A model generated the notes under the pieces. That model worked only from the letters and a program-made list of their open reading frames with translations, was not told where the DNA came from and ran no database searches. Made by a program: the position numbers and the translations under genes. From a virus, in IMG/VR virus record IMGVR_UViG_3300012357_000056, positions 1-25,342 of that record: DNA of 25,342 bases; one strand, given 5' to 3'. Below, one piece after another: positions 1 to 22,031 of this stretch; positions within the stretch are counted from its first letter, which is position 1; every line of letters starts with the position of its first letter.

Positions 1-123
1 GAAGCCCGCTCCAAATTGGAAGGGCTCATGAAGAAGATCAACCCCGATTACGAGCCGTCCGATCTGGACACATCAGTGATCCAGTCGCTGCTCGTCTCAG
101 CCCTCGAAGGGGGTAGGCGGTAA
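1..123 (+). CDS. C-terminal end of a phage head-module gene (partial)
   Basis: Only the last 40 codons are in the window; the frame is open from base 1 to the TAA at 121-123. The peptide is charged and probably helical, with MKKINPDY near its middle and EGGRR at the end. Its stop overlaps the capsid start (TAATG at 121-125), so the two are translationally coupled. In HK97-type head modules the gene before the capsid gene is usually the prohead protease or a portal/protease. That position is the only basis for a guess, because no motif is visible in this fragment. Confidence 0.7.
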   Translation, partial: EARSKLEGLMKKINPDYEPSDLDTSVIQSLLVSALEGGRR

Positions 124-725
124 TGACTGTGGCACTCGTGGTGCCGGACACGGCAGACGGTCTGGTCGAGGCGATCTCCGACCCGACCAAGGTCAAGGAA
201 TGGTTCTCGCAGTCCGCGGTCACCAACGGCGACACGAAGCGGTTCCTCGACAAGTACGCCGAGTTCGCCAGCAAGAAGAACCCCGGCACGACCGAGGACA
301 TGCAAACCCAGGTCAAGTCCGTGTTCTTCGACCTGATGCGGGAGAACGGTTTCGCCGGGTCCAGCAAGGACCTGGGCAAGCAGTTGGCGTTCCGGTCCGA
401 CGGGCGCCCAGCCCTCAACCTGTCCGCCAGCGGCTCGGCTGCGGTCGCCCGCGGCAAGGGCGCCGTGTACAACCGCACGTCGGCCGGCGCGGTGTTTGAG
501 GCGAAGTTCCGGGAGGAGGACCGGTTCGGCACGATCGGCGAATATCTTCAGGCGATCAAGGAGGAACGCGCGCCGACCGCGAACCTCAAGCGGAAGGACC
601 TACTGCAGAAGCTGGAGAACGTCCGCACCTTCCAGTCCTCGTTCGGCTCGGAGGACCCGGGCGCCGGCGGCTTCTTGATCCCGGAGCTGATGCGGTCGGA
701 TGTGATGATGCTGGCGATCGAGTAA
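123..725 (+). CDS. Major capsid protein, HK97 family, N-terminal part (ends at in-frame TAA)
   Basis: This 200-aa reading frame encodes the scaffold-like (delta) region and the start of the mature capsid subunit of an HK97-fold major capsid protein. The visible family features are a GEYLQAI N-arm-like segment near residue 140 and GGFLIPE near residue 184, which normally runs straight into the subunit core. The frame stops at TAA 723-725 and the same frame continues at once as AVVRPRATVIPM, the expected next part of the family. The start is the ATG at 123, with a GGGGG-rich ribosome site about 9 nt upstream. The usual full length would be about 484 aa (123-1577). The stop could be a nonsense mutation in a decaying prophage, a sequencing error, or a read-through site. 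The identity is firm; the biological meaning of the stop is open. Confidence 0.85.
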   Translation: MTVALVVPDTADGLVEAISDPTKVKEWFSQSAVTNGDTKRFLDKYAEFASKKNPGTTEDMQTQVKSVFFDLMRENGFAGSSKDLGKQLAFRSDGRPALNLSASGSAAVARGKGAVYNRTSAGAVFEAKFREEDRFGTIGEYLQAIKEERAPTANLKRKDLLQKLENVRTFQSSFGSEDPGAGGFLIPELMRSDVMMLAIE

Positions 726-731
726 GCCGTC

Positions 732-1577
732 GTGCGGCCCCGCGCCACGGTGATCCCGATGTCGACGCTGCGGGTGCCGGTCCCGACGGTGGACGACACC
801 AGCCACGCCTCAAGCTTGTTCGGCGGCGTGGTATGGAACTGGACCGAGGAAGCCAGCAGTATCACCGAGTCGCAGGCCACGTTCGGGCGGGTCGTGCTCG
901 ACGCGAAGAAGCTGGCGGGGTTCTTCAAGGTCCCCAACGAGCTACTCGCGGACGCCCCCGCGTTCTCCAGCTTCTTCGACGCGGTGATCCCGAAGGGCCT
1001 GGCGTGGCAGGAAGACCTCGCGTTCATGACCGAAACCGGCGCTGGCACGCCGGAGGGGTTCATCAACTCGCCGGCCAGCGTGCAGCAGGCGGCTGAGGCC
1101 GGTCAGACGGCGGGCACGATCGTGTGGGAGAACATCGTCAAGATGTACGCCCGCATGCTGCCCACCTCCCTGAAGAACGCGGTGTGGGTCGCGGCGATCG
1201 ACACGTTCCCCCAGTTGGCCACGATGGCGCTGTCCGTCGGTACCGGTGGTGGTCCGGTGTGGATCGGTGGCCCCAACCAGCCCGGCTCCGACGGGCCACC
1301 CGTCACCATCCTGGGCCGGCCGGTGATCTTCACGGAGAAGGCACCGGCGTTGGGCACGACCGGGGACATCAACTTCGTGGACCTGTCGTATTACCTGATC
1401 GGTGACCGGCAGGCCGTCGCCGTCGCCGCGTCCGAGCACGCGTTCTTCCAGAACGACCAGGTCGCCTATCGGATCATCGAGCGGGTCGACGGCCGGCCGT
1501 GGTTGCAGTCCGCGCTGACCCCGCACAACGGGTCCGCGAACACCCTGTCCGCGTTCGTGCAGCTCGCCAGCCGGTAA
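732..1577 (+). CDS. Major capsid protein, HK97 family, C-terminal part
   Basis: This 281-aa continuation lies in the same frame as 123-725. It covers most of the HK97-fold core (P and A domains), with RPRATVIPM, PTVDDTSH, ATFGRVVLDAKK, KVPNELLAD and a GFINSPASVQ region as in actinophage capsid proteins. The first possible start after the stop is GTG 732, followed by ATG 762; neither has a good Shine-Dalgarno sequence. Reinitiation after the TAA is possible, but the product would lack the N-arm that HK97 subunits use for assembly. It is more likely the downstream half of one interrupted gene. It ends with TAA at 1575-1577, so TAA is also used as an ordinary stop here. Confidence 0.85.
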   Translation: MRPRATVIPMSTLRVPVPTVDDTSHASSLFGGVVWNWTEEASSITESQATFGRVVLDAKKLAGFFKVPNELLADAPAFSSFFDAVIPKGLAWQEDLAFMTETGAGTPEGFINSPASVQQAAEAGQTAGTIVWENIVKMYARMLPTSLKNAVWVAAIDTFPQLATMALSVGTGGGPVWIGGPNQPGSDGPPVTILGRPVIFTEKAPALGTTGDINFVDLSYYLIGDRQAVAVAASEHAFFQNDQVAYRIIERVDGRPWLQSALTPHNGSANTLSAFVQLASR

Positions 1578-2376: not shown

Positions 2377-2873
2377 TGGCCGCGTTCATTCAGGGCACCG
2401 CACAGCGGGCGCTGCACTTCGGGAACCTGGTCAAGAAACTGGCACAGATCCCGCCGAACTCGGGGTCTTCGGCCACCTTGTTCACGGTGGCCGGCGGCAT
2501 GGTCATGGTGACCTCGATGGTGGGTCGTGTTTCTACGGTCCTGTCTGGTACCACGGGCGCGGTTTCGCTGGGTGCGACTCCGACTGTGGGTGCTGCTGGC
2601 GCGCAGGTGGCGGGTATCGCTGCGGCCACCGTCGTCGGCGGCGGCGAGGTCGGAGCGGCGTTCGCGGTAGCTGCGACCATCGCGGGTGCGCCGACGACTC
2701 TGGCCAACGGCGGTGCCAGTGGCGTGGCGGGTAAGTCACCGTTCCTGGCGCAGTCCGCATTCGTCGTCAACGCCGGGGTCATCACGGTCACGACGTCGGT
2801 GGCGACGATGACCGGCGCGATCGACTGGTACCTCACGTATGTGCCGTTGGATGATGGGGCGTCGGTGAGCTGA
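2376..2873 (+). CDS. Putative virion surface protein, tandem copy 1
   Basis: This 165-aa protein has a helical N-terminus (AQRALHFGNLVKKLAQ) followed by a Gly/Val/Thr-rich body. Its layout matches the next gene: a FTVAGGMVMVTSMVGRVSTV segment corresponds to FLVTGGRVIVTSLTGVVSTI there, and the C-terminal GAIDWYLTYVPLDDG corresponds to GAITWSVTWVPYDAG. The two are clear paralogues arising from tandem duplication. The overlaps TGATG at both ends couple it to its neighbours. Placement after the capsid gene suggests a decoration or head-tip protein; this is inferred from position only. Confidence 0.72.
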   Translation: MAAFIQGTAQRALHFGNLVKKLAQIPPNSGSSATLFTVAGGMVMVTSMVGRVSTVLSGTTGAVSLGATPTVGAAGAQVAGIAAATVVGGGEVGAAFAVAATIAGAPTTLANGGASGVAGKSPFLAQSAFVVNAGVITVTTSVATMTGAIDWYLTYVPLDDGASVS

Positions 2874-3385
2874 TGCCGGCCAGCCCGGCGGCCCAGGCCG
2901 CGCAGAAGTTCGCCGAGACCTACGGCGCGCTGGTCACTGGCGCGGCGAAGACTCTGCCGGCCACCGCGAGCGGCGACATCTTCTTGGTCACCGGCGGCCG
3001 GGTGATCGTCACCAGCCTGACGGGTGTGGTGTCCACGATCATCCAGGCGCAGGCGACGACGCTGTCGGTGGGCAACAAACCCACCGGCGGCTCGTCCGCC
3101 GTCGCCACACTGTGCGCCACCGCGGACCTGAACGCGAAACCGGTGGGGACGTCGCTGGCGGTGCCGCAGGCCAAGGCCAGCGCGCTGATCGTGTCGGGAG
3201 CGGACGGCACCTTGCTGTGGAACACGACTTCCGGCGCGCAAGGTGTGCCGTTCGAGAACGGCGGGATCGCGCTGGTGCCGGCCGGTTCGATCCAGGTCAC
3301 CACGGGGGCGACCAGTACGGGCGCGATCACCTGGTCGGTGACGTGGGTGCCGTACGACGCCGGCGCCGTCGTCACCGCAGCATAG
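2873..3385 (+). CDS. Putative virion surface protein, tandem copy 2
   Basis: This 170-aa paralogue of the preceding gene has a helical N-terminus (AAQAAQKFAETYGALV), then FLVTGGRVIVTSLTGVVSTI and a C-terminal beta segment ending GAITWSVTWVPYDAG. The middle is diverged from copy 1 and contains two shared-position hydrophobic strands. ATG 2873 overlaps the TGA of copy 1. Like copy 1 it has no transmembrane or catalytic motif. Two copies kept side by side suggest distinct virion positions or a heteromer, but that is inference. Confidence 0.72.
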   Translation: MPASPAAQAAQKFAETYGALVTGAAKTLPATASGDIFLVTGGRVIVTSLTGVVSTIIQAQATTLSVGNKPTGGSSAVATLCATADLNAKPVGTSLAVPQAKASALIVSGADGTLLWNTTSGAQGVPFENGGIALVPAGSIQVTTGATSTGAITWSVTWVPYDAGAVVTAA

Positions 3386-3400
3386 AAGGGATGCGCACGC

Positions 3401-3790
3401 ATGGGTAAGACCAATGCGGACGGAACAACGTACACCGACCCTCTCACCGAGGTGACCACCTCGGTGAACTCGTCCGGCGAGGTGACCGGTGTGACCGAGG
3501 CAGGTGACCCGACCAGTTCGCTGTTGGTGACCAACCCGATCACCGAGCTGGCCGACGACGCCGTCGTCGGTGACTCGACCGAGGAGACCGCAGCCGACGA
3601 GGCACCGGTCGATGTGGACGGTGACGGTGTCATCGACAAGTACGAGGCGCTCACCAAGAACGAACTCGTCGGACTGTGCACCAGCTACAAACCGAACCCG
3701 TTGCCGACGCTCGGTAACAAGGCCGATCTGGTGCGGCGACTCCAGGAAGCCGACGAGGCCGCCGCCGCGCCGGTCGGGACTGGCGCGTAG
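3401..3790 (+). CDS. Acidic head protein with EF-hand loop and SAP/HeH-like motif
   Basis: This 129-aa protein has three visible parts. Residues 1-70 are acidic and low-complexity (ELADDAVVGDSTEETAADEA). Residues 71-82 are DVDGDGVIDKYE, which fits the canonical EF-hand loop at positions 1, 3, 5, 6, 8, 9 and 12. Residues 83-117 (ALTKNELVGLC to ADLVRRLQEAD) look like a helix-extended-helix/SAP or Rho-N-like nucleic-acid-binding fold. The start is ATG 3401 with GAAGG about 11 nt upstream. SAP/HeH-like modules are common in actinophage head regions. The calcium-type loop suggests metal-dependent stability or interaction. The function is inferred; the motif is directly visible. Confidence 0.72.
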   Translation: MGKTNADGTTYTDPLTEVTTSVNSSGEVTGVTEAGDPTSSLLVTNPITELADDAVVGDSTEETAADEAPVDVDGDGVIDKYEALTKNELVGLCTSYKPNPLPTLGNKADLVRRLQEADEAAAAPVGTGA

Positions 3791-3792
3791 CG

Positions 3793-3999
3793 ATGGTGAT
3801 GGGTTGGGACCTGTACTCGACGCTGGCTTTGCAGGCCCAGTACGAGGACTACTACAAGGCCCAACCACCGGTGGCGTGCCCTAACGACGGTGAACCACTC
3901 CGAGCCGGGCCGCCCGAACAGCCTGGGGTCCTGTTCTGTTTGTTCGACGGGTGGCAGTACCCGCGCGATTGGAACCCCGAGGTCCACAGCGGAATGTGA
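3793..3999 (+). CDS. Small head-module protein with zinc-ribbon-like remnant
   Basis: This 68-aa protein has tandem similar units ACPNDGEPL and LFCLFDGWQYP. In a typical zinc ribbon each unit would carry CxxC; here each carries only one Cys (residues 29 and 49), so zinc binding is doubtful. The N-terminus is aromatic and helical (WDLYSTLALQAQYEDYY). It starts 2 nt after the upstream TAG. Its role is unknown; its position between head and connector genes suggests a virion or assembly protein. Confidence 0.65.
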   Translation: MVMGWDLYSTLALQAQYEDYYKAQPPVACPNDGEPLRAGPPEQPGVLFCLFDGWQYPRDWNPEVHSGM

Positions 4000-4074
4000 A
4001 CTCCGGTCACAACTGAATATGCAGCCAATGCTGGCCGGTTGGACTACGGCTGGTTCCGGAAAGCGAGAGCAGGC

Positions 4075-5139
4075 ATGGCGATCCACCGACCGACCTACGC
4101 CACCCGGCGGATGGTCAAGTCCGCGACGGACATTGCGACCACCGCTGACTATGACCAGCAGGTCGACAGCGCGCTGGAGAGCGCGGCGGACGAGGTGGAT
4201 TCGCTGTGTCACCGCCGCTTCTACAACACGTTGGCCACCCATTTGTGGGACTGGCCGAACTTTCAGCGTGCCTACCCGTGGCGGATCTGGTTGCAGCAGC
4301 ACGAGTTGGCCGATGTCACCTCGACGGTGCCGGTGGTCACGACTGGCGGCAAACTGATCCCCGCGTCGGCCCTGAAGTGGGGGCCGTGGGAGTCCGAGGC
4401 GCCCCCGTTTCTGTTCGTGGAGATCGACCGGTCCACCAGCTACGCGTTCGGAGTCGGGTCCACGCCGCAGCAGGACGTGTCGATCACCGGCTTGTACGGC
4501 TACTGGAACCGCACCCGCCCGGCCGGCGTGCTGGCCGCCGCGATCTCCACCACTGGCGCCACAGCCATCACGGTGTCGGACTGCTCGGTGGTCGACGCCG
4601 GTGACGTGATCACCGTGGATACCGAGACGATGTTGGTGGCCGACACCGGCATGGCCGACACGGGGCAGGTCCAAACCGGCGGTGGCTGCTCCACCGCCTC
4701 GGACGCCGACAACCAACTCACCGTCGCGGACGGCACGAAACTCCACGCGCAAGAGGTCATCGCGCTGGACGGCGAGCGGATGCTGATCACCTCGATCAGC
4801 GGGAACGTCGCCACGGTGCGGCGCGGCTACGACGGCACCGTCCTCGCCGGCCACACCACCGCCGCCGTGTTCGCGCTGCGCGCGTTGACGGTGACCCGCG
4901 GGGATTTCGGGTCAACCGCCGCCACCCACTTGAACGCCGCCGCGGTCACCGCCGCCGCCGTGCCGGGGGATGTCCGCGAGCTGGCCGCCGCCGAGGCGTT
5001 GAACACCACCTACCAGAAGGTGTCTGCGTACGCCCGCACGATCGGGGAGAACTCGCGCCCGGTGCCCGGCGGGTCGCTGCCTGACCTGCGTGCCCGGGTG
5101 AAGCGCGGGTTCTACCGGCTCCGTTTGGCGGTGATCTGA
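4075..5139 (+). CDS. Head-tail connector (neck) protein
   Basis: This 354-aa protein has an N-terminal region (residues 1-75) of the kind seen at the start of actinophage head-tail adaptor proteins: MAIHRPTYATRRMVK, a helical DQQVDSALESAADEV, then CHRRFYNTLATHLWDWPNF. Residues 165-190 and 214-240 are two related beta modules (DAGDVITVDTETMLVAD and AQEVIALDGERMLITS). The C-terminal 60 residues are helical and basic. ATG 4075 was chosen over the upstream TTG 4039 because AGAGCAGG lies just upstream and the family-like sequence begins there. The protein likely sits between portal and tail. The head-tail role rests on the N-terminus and on position. Confidence 0.75.
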   Translation: MAIHRPTYATRRMVKSATDIATTADYDQQVDSALESAADEVDSLCHRRFYNTLATHLWDWPNFQRAYPWRIWLQQHELADVTSTVPVVTTGGKLIPASALKWGPWESEAPPFLFVEIDRSTSYAFGVGSTPQQDVSITGLYGYWNRTRPAGVLAAAISTTGATAITVSDCSVVDAGDVITVDTETMLVADTGMADTGQVQTGGGCSTASDADNQLTVADGTKLHAQEVIALDGERMLITSISGNVATVRRGYDGTVLAGHTTAAVFALRALTVTRGDFGSTAATHLNAAAVTAAAVPGDVRELAAAEALNTTYQKVSAYARTIGENSRPVPGGSLPDLRARVKRGFYRLRLAVI

Positions 5140-8257: not shown

Positions 8258-8403
8258 TCGAAGCCAACAACGTGCTGGGTCTGCTGGAACGGTTCCCTGG
8301 CTACACGCTCGGCACGTTGTTGGGGGACTACGAACACTTGCTGTGGTATGTGCAGGTGCAGAACGCGGGCCGACCGGCGGCACCGTCGAGTGAGGAGGGG
8401 TGA
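7838..8403 (+). CDS. Tail assembly chaperone, -1 frameshift (GT-type) product
   Basis: The product is join(7838..8176, 8176..8403), 188 aa. The -1 frame is open from the slippery site through the zero-frame stop and ends at TGA 8401-8403. It encodes ELIEANNVLGLLERFPGY and then LLGDYEHLLWYVQVQNAG, a helical T-type domain with no start codon of its own. The tape measure gene starts 2 nt after it. In the lambda family the long form recruits tail tube protein to the tape measure. The slip site is seen; the frameshift efficiency is unknown. Confidence 0.75.
8170..8176 (+). other. -1 ribosomal slippery site CCCTTTG
   Basis: C CCT TTG fits the X XXY YYZ rule exactly in the chaperone frame (codons CCT 8171-8173, TTG 8174-8176). 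After slippage the tRNAs re-pair on CCC and TTT and reading resumes at GCC 8176. It is the only perfect heptamer I found near the end of the zero frame. A GC-rich stretch follows and could fold as a stimulator. Confidence 0.72.
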
Positions 8404-8405
8404 CG

Positions 8406-10829
8406 ATGGAAAACGAAGTCAAGATCCACATCACCACCACTGACGACACGGCGGCCGGGCGGGGCAAGACCCGCGAGGATTTTCAGAAACTCGGCGACGA
8501 CGTCGCGGGCGACCTGGACAAGAAACTGTCCGACGGCGGCACCAAAGCCGGCAAGGACATGGGCACCAACACCAGCAAGGAAGCCAAGAAATCGGCGGAG
8601 CCTGGCGGCGGCATGATGGCCACGGCCATCGCCGGGGGCCTCATCGCGGGTGGCCCGGTGATCGGCGCGGCGATGGCCGGTATCGGCGCGCTCGGACTCA
8701 TCGCCCTGGGGGCGAAGCTTCAGGCCGGGGCGCCGCAGATCCAAGCCGCGTGGGGCAACCTCGTCAACGACGCCAAGGTCTCCGCGACCGCGTACAGCTC
8801 CGTCATGGTCACCCCGATCCGGGACGCACTCAACCAGATCGACGCCGACCTGCAACGGCAAGGCCCCGTCATTCAGGGCATGTTCTCCTCGGCTGCCGCC
8901 GACATACCGATCTTCACCAACGGTTTGCTGTCCCTCACCGACAACGCGCTCCCCGGGTTCTCCAACGCCCTATCGCATTCCGAAGTGATCATGCAGGGTA
9001 TCGCGTCGATGATGGGCAGCATCGGCTCAGGTGTCAGCGATATCGGCAACTCGGTCGCGTCCAGCAGCGGCCGGATCGGCTCGGACATGTCCAGCCTGGG
9101 CAACATCGTGCACACGGTGGAGACAGGCATCGGGAGCCTGATCTCCATCACATCGGGGCTCGCGGAGGGCGCGCTGCCGGCGTTGGGTGGCGCGGTCGGC
9201 TTGGTGACCGGCACCCTGTCCGGGCTGCATTCGCTGCTGGGCCCGATCGAACCGGAACTCGGCGGCATCGTCAGCGTGGCTGGCGGCGCGTATCTGGCGT
9301 TCAGCAAGCTCGCGCCGATGGCCGACAAGCTCGGCACCAGCATGGCCAGCAAGGGTGGCCTGCTGGGCAGCATCTCCGGTCTGGCCGCCGGCATCCCCTA
9401 CGTCGGTGCCGCCGTAGCCGGCCTGTCCCTGGTGACCGGTATTCTGGCTAGCCAGAACGAGAAGGCGGCGCAGGCCGCGACGGACGAAGCCAAGTCGTCG
9501 GACAATCTGAACAAGTCGCTGGCCGGTGTGACGAACGCGACGCAGGCCCAGATCGACGGGATGGTGGAACAGAACGCCGCCGGACAGAGCTGGTTGCGGA
9601 CGGCACAAGATACTTCGCACCAAGTAGCCACCTTGGAGCAAGTGCTGGCAGCCGCCGGTGTCTCCCAAAATCAATTCGCTTCGGCCATTGAGAATGGTGG
9701 CAGCCAGCTAACGGCTATGCATTCGAAGCTAGACGGTGTCGTAATATCTCAGCAGGCCGCTTACGACAGTGGCAAGGATCTCACCGATTTTCAGATGAAT
9801 CTGGGCGACGCCGCTAGCGCACTTTCTGGCAAACTGGAAGATCTGGCCGGGGCGTATCAGGGTTCGGCTGCGCAGGCCGAGGAACTCGCGATCCAAACCG
9901 CGCAGGCCGACCTCGGCCTCGACCACGCGACGCTGAGTTCCGCTGAACTGACCAAAGACATGCACGTGCTCGGCGACGCCACCTCAACCACATCGGCCCG
10001 CACAACAGCGCTGACGGACGCGTTGCGGCTGATGGCCGACCACGGCGCCGAACCCGCCAACGACGCCCTCGCGCAGGCATGGTCCACAGTGAACGGGCTC
10101 GGCGCCGCGTTGAAGGGCACCACCGGGAAGCTGCTGGACACCGGCGGTGGGCTTGACCTCACGACGACCAAGGGTGAGGCCGCGCAGACCGCGTTCGAGC
10201 AGCTCCGTGGCCAGGTCGCGGCGTACGCGCAGGCGTTGGTCAGCCAGGGTGACAGCAGCCAGGAGGTGCGGGCCAAGACCGATGCGTTGATCCAGCAGTT
10301 GACCGGCCCGATGGCCAAGGCGCTGGGGTTGTCGCAGGCGCAGGTGAAGACGTTGTCGGACACCTTGTTCGGGCTCAACGGCGCGAACATCACCGCCACG
10401 GTCGGTATCAACACGAATGAGGCTTATTCGGCTCTGAGCACGCTCCTCAACCGGATCAACAACAGCTCAGCGACGGTGGCGGTCAATATCGCCAGTGGTG
10501 CGGCGCAGCACGGGATTCAGATCCCGAAGGTGAGCGGCGGCCCGACCGGTCTGTCCCATTACGACACCGGTGGCGCTACCGGTGATTTGACGATGAATGA
10601 GCACGGCGGCGAAGCGGTCCGGCTACCGACCGGGTCGATGGTGATCCCGAACAGCTCAGCAGACAACGCGGCCCGAACCGCGTTCGAACGCGGCGGCGGC
10701 GGCGCGAGTATGTCTGTCGAAATGAAATTCACGGGTACACAGACCGCGTTTTCGACGTTCGTGATGAACGAGTTCAGGGCGGGCCGGATCCAGCTTGTCG
10801 CCAACGGGCAACGAGTCACGGTCGGATAG
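8406..10829 (+). CDS. Tape measure protein
   Basis: This 807-aa protein is the longest in the window, directly after the tail chaperone, as expected for the tail length ruler. The N-terminal 70 residues are charged and helical. Residues about 75-105 and 260-350 are long Gly/Ala-rich hydrophobic stretches (ATAIAGGLIAGGPVIGAAMAG) that could insert into membrane during DNA delivery. The middle is Ala/Gln/Ser-rich coiled-coil type. The C-terminus has YDTGGATGDLTMNEHGGEAV and RLPTGSMVIPN, a common tape-measure ending. ATG 8406 was chosen over GTG 8400. A lower-GC stretch lies at about 9661-9840. Confidence 0.88.
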   Translation: MENEVKIHITTTDDTAAGRGKTREDFQKLGDDVAGDLDKKLSDGGTKAGKDMGTNTSKEAKKSAEPGGGMMATAIAGGLIAGGPVIGAAMAGIGALGLIALGAKLQAGAPQIQAAWGNLVNDAKVSATAYSSVMVTPIRDALNQIDADLQRQGPVIQGMFSSAAADIPIFTNGLLSLTDNALPGFSNALSHSEVIMQGIASMMGSIGSGVSDIGNSVASSSGRIGSDMSSLGNIVHTVETGIGSLISITSGLAEGALPALGGAVGLVTGTLSGLHSLLGPIEPELGGIVSVAGGAYLAFSKLAPMADKLGTSMASKGGLLGSISGLAAGIPYVGAAVAGLSLVTGILASQNEKAAQAATDEAKSSDNLNKSLAGVTNATQAQIDGMVEQNAAGQSWLRTAQDTSHQVATLEQVLAAAGVSQNQFASAIENGGSQLTAMHSKLDGVVISQQAAYDSGKDLTDFQMNLGDAASALSGKLEDLAGAYQGSAAQAEELAIQTAQADLGLDHATLSSAELTKDMHVLGDATSTTSARTTALTDALRLMADHGAEPANDALAQAWSTVNGLGAALKGTTGKLLDTGGGLDLTTTKGEAAQTAFEQLRGQVAAYAQALVSQGDSSQEVRAKTDALIQQLTGPMAKALGLSQAQVKTLSDTLFGLNGANITATVGINTNEAYSALSTLLNRINNSSATVAVNIASGAAQHGIQIPKVSGGPTGLSHYDTGGATGDLTMNEHGGEAVRLPTGSMVIPNSSADNAARTAFERGGGGASMSVEMKFTGTQTAFSTFVMNEFRAGRIQLVANGQRVTVG

Positions 10830-14240: not shown

Positions 14241-14521
14241 TGAGCGCGCCTCAGCCAGAGCTAGGGCTGCCGTCGACCGGGGAGATCATGCGCGGCATCG
14301 GGCGGCTGGAGAAGTCCGTGAGCGACGTCGGCGACCAGATCGATCAGGTCGGTCAGCGCCTCGGTGACCGGCTCGGCGACCACGACAAGACACTCGCCCG
14401 GCACGATGAGCGGATCAGCACATTGGAGCGGGCGAGTCAGCGGACGTGGGAACGGGTGGGGGTGTGGATCGCGGCTGTGGCGGCGTTTCTGGCCGCCCTG
14501 TTGCCGCATCCGTGGAAGTGA
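14240..14521 (+). CDS. Membrane-anchored coiled-coil protein, holin/spanin-like
   Basis: This 93-aa protein has a long helical coiled-coil region (residues 15-70, ERISTLERASQRTWERVG at its end) and one C-terminal membrane span (residues 73-89, VGVWIAAVAAFLAALLP). Proteins of this shape occur next to lysins in actinophages and are often called holin or membrane protein. ATG 14240 is coupled to the micro-ORF stop; a longer in-frame start at ATG 14144 exists but lacks a good ribosome site. It opens the lysis cassette. Confidence 0.65.
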   Translation: MSAPQPELGLPSTGEIMRGIGRLEKSVSDVGDQIDQVGQRLGDRLGDHDKTLARHDERISTLERASQRTWERVGVWIAAVAAFLAALLPHPWK

Positions 14522-14549
14522 CAAAATGAGTACCGAAAGGAAACAGACC

Positions 14550-15251
14550 GTGACCGCATTCCGCTATTTCAAGGAACTCGCTGGCAACCCGTTCCGTCTG
14601 GGACGCCACCAGGTCCACGACGCGCTACTGCCCGAACTGGAGGCCGTGTTCGAGGCGGGCGCGCAGGCCCGGATCCTGTCGGTGGTGCACCAGGAGTTCG
14701 AGCCGTGCTTCGACCAGGGCCAGATCGGTTCGTGCACCGCGAACGCCGCGCTCGGTCTGCTGGTGTCCGATCCGTTCGGGCATCTGGGTGTCGGGTACAC
14801 CGAGCGGGACGCGCTCGCCCTGTACGAACTGGAGACCAAGTTGGACGACCGGCAGATCCCCGGCGAGTACCCGCCGGACGACACCGGGTCGACCGGTCCG
14901 TGGTCGATGATGGCGTTGGAGAAGCAGGGCCGGATCCGGTCGTGGCGGCACACCCGTGCCCTGCACACCGCGCTGCGCCTGCTCAACACTGGCCCGGTCT
15001 CGATCGGTGTGCCGTGGTATCAGTCGATGTTCACCCCGAACTCGTCTGGCGTGTTGGTGGTGGATCAGTCCTCGGGCGTCGCGGGTGGCCATCAGATCGC
15101 GTTGACTGCGAACGATGTGACCGCGCAGCGGGTGTTGATCAGGAATTCGTGGGGTACGGGTTGGGGTCAGGGCGGGCATGCCTGGCTGGATTGGTCGGAT
15201 TTCGATGCGTTGCTGCATGACGGCGGCGATGTTGTGCAGCCGGTGCTGTGA
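14550..15251 (+). CDS. Papain-like (C1 family) cysteine peptidase
   Basis: This 233-aa protein has the papain-family catalytic set in order: Gln56 and Cys62 in DQGQIGSCTANA (Gln six residues before Cys, as in papain), His181 in GGHQIAL, and Asn199 in RNSWGTGWG. A GYTERDALALYELE segment lies between them. GTG 14550 was chosen because AAAGGA is 9 nt upstream; ATG 14526 is an in-frame alternative. There is no signal peptide or membrane span. It lies between the coiled-coil membrane protein and small coupled genes before the hydrolase-like protein. It may cut peptide cross-bridges in the host wall or act on host or virion proteins. The catalytic class is clear; the substrate is inferred. Confidence 0.82.
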   Translation: MTAFRYFKELAGNPFRLGRHQVHDALLPELEAVFEAGAQARILSVVHQEFEPCFDQGQIGSCTANAALGLLVSDPFGHLGVGYTERDALALYELETKLDDRQIPGEYPPDDTGSTGPWSMMALEKQGRIRSWRHTRALHTALRLLNTGPVSIGVPWYQSMFTPNSSGVLVVDQSSGVAGGHQIALTANDVTAQRVLIRNSWGTGWGQGGHAWLDWSDFDALLHDGGDVVQPVL

Positions 15252-19241: not shown

Positions 19242-19976
19242 TTACAGGGTGCTGGTCAGCACTGCTCGCATCGGCCAGTCCATCGTCACGTCATCAGCCG
19301 GTTTGCCCTGGCCACGCAGGTACTCGACGAAATGCGTGGCCCATTCCCGGTGCCATGCGGCCTGCCGGATCTGCAACGTGTCCAGGTCGTCGCACGCCAC
19401 CGGGTACCGGTGCGCGATCTTCCACGCGACCCGCGCGGCGCACAGGGCATCCGCTGTCGAGCCGTGCGCGTCCGCGTCGGAGATCGGGACACCGTAATGC
19501 GACGACGTGGCGGTCAGGGTGCGCTTGCCGCGCCGGTATCGGTCCAGCGCCCGGTCGATCACGAGCGGGTCGACAACGCGCAGCGGCCCGGTCGTCATGC
19601 TCGGGTCCGTCAACGTCGCCAAGCCATAGCGCCGGCACTCCCGATCAAGCAAGGTCAGGTCGTACGGCGCGTTGTACACAATGAGCGGCGCGCCCTGCTC
19701 GACATGCATGGCCAGCGTCGTGCAGATGTCGACCAGCGCGGTGTCCGGCCGCTGCCCTTCGGCTTGGGCGTGCTCCGTGGTGACGCCGTGCACCTCGGTT
19801 GCGGCGGCCGGGATCTCGACACCCGGGTCGATGAGCCACGAACCGATGTGTGGCTTCTCGCCCGGTCGGATGACGATCACGGATGCGGTGACGATGCGGG
19901 CGGTCTCCGGGTCTATGCCGGTGGTCTCGGTGTCGAATGAGACAAGGGTGCCGTTGGCCCATGCGGGCGCGGTCAC
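19242..19976 (-). CDS. DEDDh 3'-5' exonuclease (DnaQ/epsilon-like)
   Basis: This 244-aa protein has every expected DEDDh residue: Asp15 and Glu17 in SFDTETTGID (ExoI), Asp106 in YNAPYDLTLL (ExoII), and His171 with Asp176 in HGSTADALCAA (ExoIII). It is a metal-dependent 3'-5' exonuclease of the DnaQ fold. GTG 19976 overlaps the upstream stop (GTGA), so it is coupled to the membrane protein gene. It is far from any replication cluster, so roles in repair, degrading invading DNA or RNA turnover are possible. The enzyme class is secure and the pathway is not. Confidence 0.85.
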   Translation of the reverse strand: MTAPAWANGTLVSFDTETTGIDPETARIVTASVIVIRPGEKPHIGSWLIDPGVEIPAAATEVHGVTTEHAQAEGQRPDTALVDICTTLAMHVEQGAPLIVYNAPYDLTLLDRECRRYGLATLTDPSMTTGPLRVVDPLVIDRALDRYRRGKRTLTATSSHYGVPISDADAHGSTADALCAARVAWKIAHRYPVACDDLDTLQIRQAAWHREWATHFVEYLRGQGKPADDVTMDWPMRAVLTSTL

Positions 19977-20452
19977 CGCGCGGCCCGATCGGCTAGGACC
20001 CGCTGCCAGGTGCGCACGACAACACGCGCCACCTCGAACCCGATCCATGCGGGCAACCCGTAGGCGACGACACCGAACGCCAGGAACCACAGCCCGGCCG
20101 GCCGGGTCGCGGCGATGCCCATCAGGGTGGCCAGCCCGAGCGCGGCCGGTACGAGGATCTTCGCGGCCCGCCGGTTGATGGCCTGCACGCTGGACAACCG
20201 GCGTCGGTGTCGCGGCGGCCGTGGCCGCCTGGTCAGGCCGGCCCAGGTGACGGTGACGCCGGCCAGCAGCAGCCCGCCCAGTAGGACGTAGATCCCGGCG
20301 CGGTGCTCGGGCAGGGTGAGGATCGCGACGACCTGGCCGAGACCGACGGCGACCGGGAAGGCGTAGAGGACGCCGACGCGGAGGATGCTGGTGGCCCAGC
20401 CGGCGAGCGTGGCGATGCCGCGCACGACCGACGAACGGTGGATGGTGGACAC
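19973..20452 (-). CDS. Four-helix membrane protein coupled to the exonuclease
   Basis: This 159-aa protein has four predicted spans (about residues 27-46, 54-73, 99-116 and 121-140) and a strongly basic loop between spans 2 and 3 (RRPRPPRHRRR). GTG 20452 has AAGGAG 6 nt upstream. The ribosome site lies inside an inverted repeat (20457-20481). It is the first gene of a two-gene minus-strand unit with the DEDDh exonuclease and is divergent from the integrase. No family is recognised; superinfection exclusion is a possible role. Confidence 0.68.
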   Translation of the reverse strand: MSTIHRSSVVRGIATLAGWATSILRVGVLYAFPVAVGLGQVVAILTLPEHRAGIYVLLGGLLLAGVTVTWAGLTRRPRPPRHRRRLSSVQAINRRAAKILVPAALGLATLMGIAATRPAGLWFLAFGVVAYGLPAWIGFEVARVVVRTWQRVLADRAAR

Positions 20453-20456
20453 GGGG

Positions 20457-20481
20457 ACTCCTTCGTGGTCATCGAAGGAGT
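20457..20481. promoter_or_regulatory. Perfect inverted repeat between membrane gene and integrase
   Basis: ACTCCTTCG (20457-20465) and CGAAGGAGT (20473-20481) form a 9-bp perfect inverted repeat with a 7-nt spacer, extended by GGGG 20453-20456 and CCCC 20484-20487. It contains the minus-strand ribosome site of the 20452 gene. It could be an operator, a hairpin controlling translation, or part of the integrase attachment region. Confidence 0.5.
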
Positions 20482-20509
20482 GGCCCCTAGCGAAGTTTAA
20501 GGAGCCATA

Positions 20510-20537
20510 CCCCTTCTCAGGGGCTACAGTACGCACC
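20510..20537 (+). promoter_or_regulatory. Integrase promoter with hairpin, apparently leaderless
   Basis: TACAGT (20525-20530) fits the actinobacterial -10 pattern TANNNT and lies 7 nt before GTG 20538, so transcription would start at the start codon. There is no ribosome site. A small inverted repeat (CCCCT 20510-20514, AGGGG 20519-20523) abuts the -10 and could be an operator. No clear -35 was found. Confidence 0.45.
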
Positions 20538-22031
20538 GTGAGCACACCACGCAATGATGACCTTCGTACCGGCCGCGAGTACCTGCGTGTCAGCGTCGAC
20601 CGGTCCGGCCGCAGCAGGTCCACCGACGAGCAGCACGAGGACAACGCCCGAACAGCCGAAGGCCACGGCATCCAGCTCGGCGTCCCCTACCTGGACACCA
20701 ATCGGTCCGCCTCCCGGTACGCACGCGTGGCCCGCGAGGACTTCGACACACTGGTCGCGGACCTACGCGAAGACCGGTTCGGCGCCGACCATCTCGTGCT
20801 GTGGGAATCCTCCCGCGGCTCCCGGAAGGTCGGCGAGTGGGTTGAGCTGATCGAGCTGTTGGAGCAGCGCCGGGTACGTGTGCTGGTGACGACGCACGGC
20901 CGTGTCTACGACCCAGCGAATCCCCGCGACCGGCGGTCGCTGCTGGAGGACGCGGTCGACTCCGAGTACGAGTCGGCGAAGACGTCGTTGCGGGTGCGGC
21001 GCGACACCGCGTCGGCGGCGGCGAAAGGCCGCCCACACGGGCGGCCCCCGTTCGGGTATCGGCGCCGCTACGACCCGGTGTCCGGTGTGCTGTCCGCGCA
21101 GGAGATCGACCCGGACGAGGCGCCGCTGGTGCGGGAGTTGTTCGACCGGCTCGTCGCGGGCCACTCGCTGTACGCCATCGCGAAGGACTGGCGGGAACGC
21201 GGCATCGTCAACCGGTCCGGGAAGCCGTTCCTGGCGCCGCACCTGCGGAACATGGCCTTGAACGAGGCGTACCGAGGGTTGCGGCTCCACTCCCCCGGCC
21301 GGCGCGGCGGTAACCGTCCCTCGGAGGACGCGGTGATCTCGCTGGCGGCGTGGCCCGCGCTGGTGCCGGCACCGACGTTCCTGGCTGTGCGCCGGTTGCT
21401 GACCGCGCCGGAGCGGCGGGTGTCCCGGCCTGGCCGCGGGATTCATCTGCTGTCGATGATCGCGGTGTGCGATCCGTGCGGGTCGGTGCTGCACGTGCAG
21501 TATGTGCGCGGCGTGGCCCAGTACCGGTGCAAGGAGCGCGGGTGTGCGGGCGCGGTCGAGTCCGAACTGGATGGCGTGGTCGAGCGGGAGATCGTGTTGT
21601 TCCTGGCCCGGCCTGAGTTGCGTGGGCAGTTGTCGGAGGACGAGACGGAGAACGCCGAGCTGGCCGGGGTGCGCACCGAACTGGCAGAGGCCAGGACCCT
21701 GGTGGTCGACCTGGTCAAGGCGGTGACGTCGAAGCAAATGACCGTGCAGTTGGCGGGGCAGGTGGAGCGGGAGACGCGCCAGCAGATCGTGGTGCTGGAG
21801 CGGCGGGAGCGTGAGCTGACGACGCCGAGCGTGCTGCGAGGATTGATCGAGCCGGGGGCCGATGTGGCCGCGCGTTGGGAGGCTGCGCCGATGTCTACGA
21901 AGCGGATGGTGGCGCGGATCTTGTTGACGCCGGAGTGGATGGGTGAGGTGCGGGTGCGGCCGTCGGGGCGTGGTCGGCGGCGGTTGCCGGTGCCGGTGGG
22001 TGAGCGTGTGGTGTTCCTGCGGACCGCGTAA
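20538..22031 (+). CDS. Large serine integrase (phiC31-like)
   Basis: This 497-aa site-specific recombinase has an N-terminal catalytic domain beginning EYLRVSVDRSGR, with Ser19 the likely nucleophile, and continuing with DLREDRFGADHLVLWESSRGSR. A recombinase domain follows, including GRPPFGYRR and VRELFDRLVAGHSL. A zinc ribbon is formed by Cys311, Cys314, Cys331 and Cys336, and a C-terminal coiled coil by residues about 375-440. This is the size and order of phage large serine integrases, which recombine attP with attB. GTG 20538 is used with no ribosome site. Confidence 0.92.
   Translation: MSTPRNDDLRTGREYLRVSVDRSGRSRSTDEQHEDNARTAEGHGIQLGVPYLDTNRSASRYARVAREDFDTLVADLREDRFGADHLVLWESSRGSRKVGEWVELIELLEQRRVRVLVTTHGRVYDPANPRDRRSLLEDAVDSEYESAKTSLRVRRDTASAAAKGRPHGRPPFGYRRRYDPVSGVLSAQEIDPDEAPLVRELFDRLVAGHSLYAIAKDWRERGIVNRSGKPFLAPHLRNMALNEAYRGLRLHSPGRRGGNRPSEDAVISLAAWPALVPAPTFLAVRRLLTAPERRVSRPGRGIHLLSMIAVCDPCGSVLHVQYVRGVAQYRCKERGCAGAVESELDGVVEREIVLFLARPELRGQLSEDETENAELAGVRTELAEARTLVVDLVKAVTSKQMTVQLAGQVERETRQQIVVLERRERELTTPSVLRGLIEPGADVAARWEAAPMSTKRMVARILLTPEWMGEVRVRPSGRGRRRLPVPVGERVVFLRTA

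Follow-up and report, generated by a model that had tools for sequence, protein, structure and literature searches.

The DNA analysed here raises the question of whether a TAA codon that cuts a major capsid gene in two plays a part in the expression of that gene or is simply an accident of one copy. The window, that is, the whole stretch analysed, is a 25,342-base virus record of IMG/VR (IMGVR_UViG_3300012357_000056) derived from a metagenome. A frame starting at ATG 123 runs for 200 amino acids up to a TAA at 723-725, continues for 283 codons and ends at another TAA, at 1575-1577. The features at this locus are as follows.

123-725, plus strand: N-terminal part of the major capsid gene, 200 amino acids, truncated by TAA; presumed delta or scaffold-like region and N-arm.
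723-725, plus strand: in-frame TAA, peculiar to this record; a sense codon stands there in 83/83 relatives spanning the site.
726-1577, plus strand: C-terminal part, HK97-fold core with a normal TAA end (PF05065, PHROG 10); 84% amino acid identity to the nearest relative.
732-734, plus strand: GTG, proposed restart site; codon of a family-conserved Val, without a good Shine-Dalgarno sequence.

The initial annotation had described an HK97 capsid gene open from 123 to 1577 except for this stop, and our data bear it out. The residues encoded after the stop (732-1574) match the Pfam family Phage_capsid (PF05065, E=9.1e-47, 160.2 bits, where the curated cut-off is 24.2) and the PHROG 10 major head protein (E=3.3e-43). 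Taken alone, the N-terminal part (123-725) gave no match in Pfam or PHROG; over its full length it aligns to the relatives with about 54-65% amino acid identity. Homology is therefore found on both sides of the TAA, uninterrupted by indels at the site, which lies between the conserved stretches GGFLIPE...R and VR.RA.VIPM. The third-position GC content of the frame (0.90-0.94) continues unbroken through the stop, indicating that the two halves are one gene, and this is a real gene rather than a long open reading frame arisen by chance. A structure predicted from the capsid alignment had a mean pLDDT of 39, too low for use. The cut presumably falls in the N-arm or at the start of the core, a placement that we extrapolate from the HK97 match and from what is generally known about that capsid.

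Relatives were gathered with the C-terminal half as query, that is, with sequence downstream of the stop, so that their choice was not biased toward intact genes. Among the 85 loci obtained, five came from bacterial genomes (Streptomyces, Catellatospora and a Chloroflexi MAG) and 80 from IMG/VR. The site is spanned by 83 of them, and all 83 are gap-free there and carry a sense codon (21 E, 18 T, 15 D, 12 S, 7 K, 6 Q, 3 A and 1 R). None of these 83 relatives has a stop at the site or anywhere else in the aligned capsid gene, and none has a split gene; the continuous frame joining the N-terminal region to the core has failed in this copy and is kept in every relative spanning the site. The expectation of a sense codon in relatives was thus confirmed, but not that of Ser, which occurs in only 12 of the 83, mostly more distant ones, acidic residues being the commonest. 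Since this alignment column is variable, the residue at the site is not critical. A degenerate pattern with TAA at the same stretch had no match in 2.9 million viral contigs, and the exact pattern of the window around the site, with the stop codon left free, recovered no other record of the same phage. At the protein level even the closest relative shares only about 76% identity, which makes a comparison with other isolates of the same phage impossible.

A stop in a gene that had long ceased to function should be accompanied by other damage, and here the protein is well preserved. Among the 33 distinct sequences of a clade with at least 60% identity, the window protein breaks one of 128 otherwise invariant columns, the stop aside, against 0 to 6 broken by the 32 intact relatives in the same test; in a wider set of 64 sequences, it breaks 0 of 73. 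Both results indicate that the full-length protein was under selection until recently and that no visible decay followed the stop. Pairwise dN/dS of about 0.2 in the core likewise points to purifying selection, at distances too large for dating the stop. The other late genes with relatives have open frames; across the eight genes compared, the relatives themselves contained no stops, and a possible frame change was met just once. Relatives of the products of 8400-10829 and 20385-22031, sought in viral contigs for the same test, were not found. The idea of a long-decayed prophage finds no support in the single broken column in 128 and the open neighbouring genes, in agreement with the initial annotation, which had argued against old decay. 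Judged from these sequences, the capsid lesion is either recent or not real.

The remainder of the record is informative about the kind of virus involved. One gene is of particular relevance:

20385-22031, plus strand: serine integrase, open frame (Pfam Resolvase 2e-17, Recombinase 1.2e-14; PHROG 95 integrase 1.6e-64).

This serine recombinase is of full length, and its intact state suggests that the record belongs to a temperate phage or a prophage. No named phage has a close DNA match to the window; its nearest named relatives are mostly from Streptomyces and other actinobacteria, and the host is probably an actinobacterium. These bacteria use the ordinary genetic code. Directly preceding the integrase, a DnaQ-like exonuclease is encoded on the minus strand (19242-20090; RNase_T 2e-10; PHROG 192, E 7.5e-38). 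Downstream of the tail genes, still in the late region, we found a papain-like cysteine peptidase (14364-15251, plus strand; Pfam Peptidase_C1 2.8e-07; PHROG 16701 peptidase 1e-31), and a short late gene with a SAP domain at its end (3401-3790, plus strand; Pfam 1.1e-05) lies after the capsid gene and before the head-tail genes. The adjacent plus-strand genes 2376-2873 and 2873-3385, for which no family match was found, encode products of 165 and 170 amino acids that look similar by eye and are perhaps a tandem duplication. A small conserved gene of about 65-70 amino acids (3793-3999, plus strand; MGWDLYSTL...ACPNDGEPL...C.FDGWQYPRDW), too short for the list of open reading frames, has two Cys motifs resembling a zinc ribbon and occurs close to the capsid gene in many relatives, with matches at 66 loci. 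Its normal end is TGA 3997, which is in frame with the gene 4039-5139 and was for that reason considered as a second internal stop; this was rejected, the gene ending likewise in several relatives.

Taken together, these data make it very likely that the TAA, private and isolated, is a nonsense change confined to a single copy of an ordinary HK97-fold major capsid gene. Two origins come into question, and we consider them about equally likely. The change may be a real and recent mutation in a temperate phage or a prophage whose host is probably an actinobacterium; this copy would then need help to obtain a capsid. Alternatively, the metagenome consensus may be wrong here, through an error in base calling or assembly. 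Two observations count somewhat against a private change. Sense codons one base change away from TAA make up about 5% in the late genes, so either the ancestral codon was an uncommon one or two changes were needed, which slightly lowers the chance of both a mutation and an error. Moreover, the stop lies 723 bases from the end of the contig, outside the last read length, where errors accumulate. We infer that translation of this copy ends at the TAA and that no capsid is made from it. Of the four options left unranked at the outset, nonsense mutation (as a recent event) and base-call error are thus the two that stand, and readthrough and reinitiation find no support.

It is very unlikely that we are dealing with a genuine stop, fixed in a living phage that obtains its capsid through leaky reading of the TAA or from two separately translated pieces. 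As regards the first route, a functional partial readthrough would give a 200-amino-acid short product together with the full-length capsid protein, the long form having been suggested earlier as a minor product. The frame beyond the stop is indeed open and conserved, but the stop is shared by no relative, the degenerate TAA pattern is absent from the viral contigs, and the 131 bases starting with the stop show no better folding than their shuffles (z -0.99), so that there is no unusual RNA fold at the stop. Hundreds of copies of a capsid protein are required, and general knowledge of HK97 capsids places the cut within one folding unit; both points speak against readthrough, which we regard as highly improbable.

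The second route, a restart at GTG 732 yielding a separate C-terminal core protein from a split capsid gene, appears just as improbable. The GTG is six bases past the stop, near enough for coupling, and the 281-amino-acid remainder is a full PF05065 match. Nevertheless, the best Shine-Dalgarno match upstream is a weak one, with four of six bases of AGGAGG (GATCGAGTAAGC), the GTG is simply the codon of a Val conserved in the family, and a protein started there would be missing the first 203 residues, among them the conserved GGFLIPE...R...E just before the site. No split gene occurs in any relative, and a capsid is not expected to form from two separate pieces.

The stops of the 24 likely genes are 17 TGA, five TAG and two TAA, the latter in the capsid gene itself and in the integrase. 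No tRNA, suppressor tRNAs included, was found in the 25,342-base window, which is a genome fragment, and neither were known RNA elements. Although phages with reassigned stop codons are known (PMC11210395, PMC7886860), the probability that this phage decodes TAA as an amino acid throughout is practically negligible, given that only one stop lies inside any conserved gene with relatives, that TAA terminates two genes while TGA and TAG terminate the others, that the window has no suppressor tRNA and that the nearest named relatives are mostly from ordinary-code hosts; general recoding had been judged unlikely from the start, and rightly so.

As a caution, where a metagenome contig has a lone in-frame stop that no relative shares, a private mutation or an error is the simplest explanation. 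A stop fixed in a phage that makes particles would be surprising, and no evidence points there.

Stop-reassigned phages, such as the crAss-like phages with code 15 (PMC7886860, PMC9523058), resemble our case in having an in-frame stop in a phage gene. However, they carry many in-frame recoded codons, often together with a suppressor tRNA (PMC11210395, PMC7886860), whereas here there is a single stop, TAA and not TAG, no suppressor tRNA, and all three stop codons are used normally. There is likeness to the HK97-fold capsids of PF05065 and PHROG 10 (for example that of Streptomyces phage Dagobah; relatives of solved structure are the capsids of Rhodobacter capsulatus GTA, 6tba, and HK97 gp5, 3qpr): the C-terminal match is strong and the full frame aligns with 83 environmental and genomic relatives, the difference being the in-frame stop after codon 200 in this copy. 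The private nonsense alleles of prophages and metagenome contigs, which represent pseudogenes or consensus errors, show a lone stop in a single record, the gene being otherwise intact, just as found here. We see no notable difference from them, and the lack of further decay would make the change, if real, a recent one.
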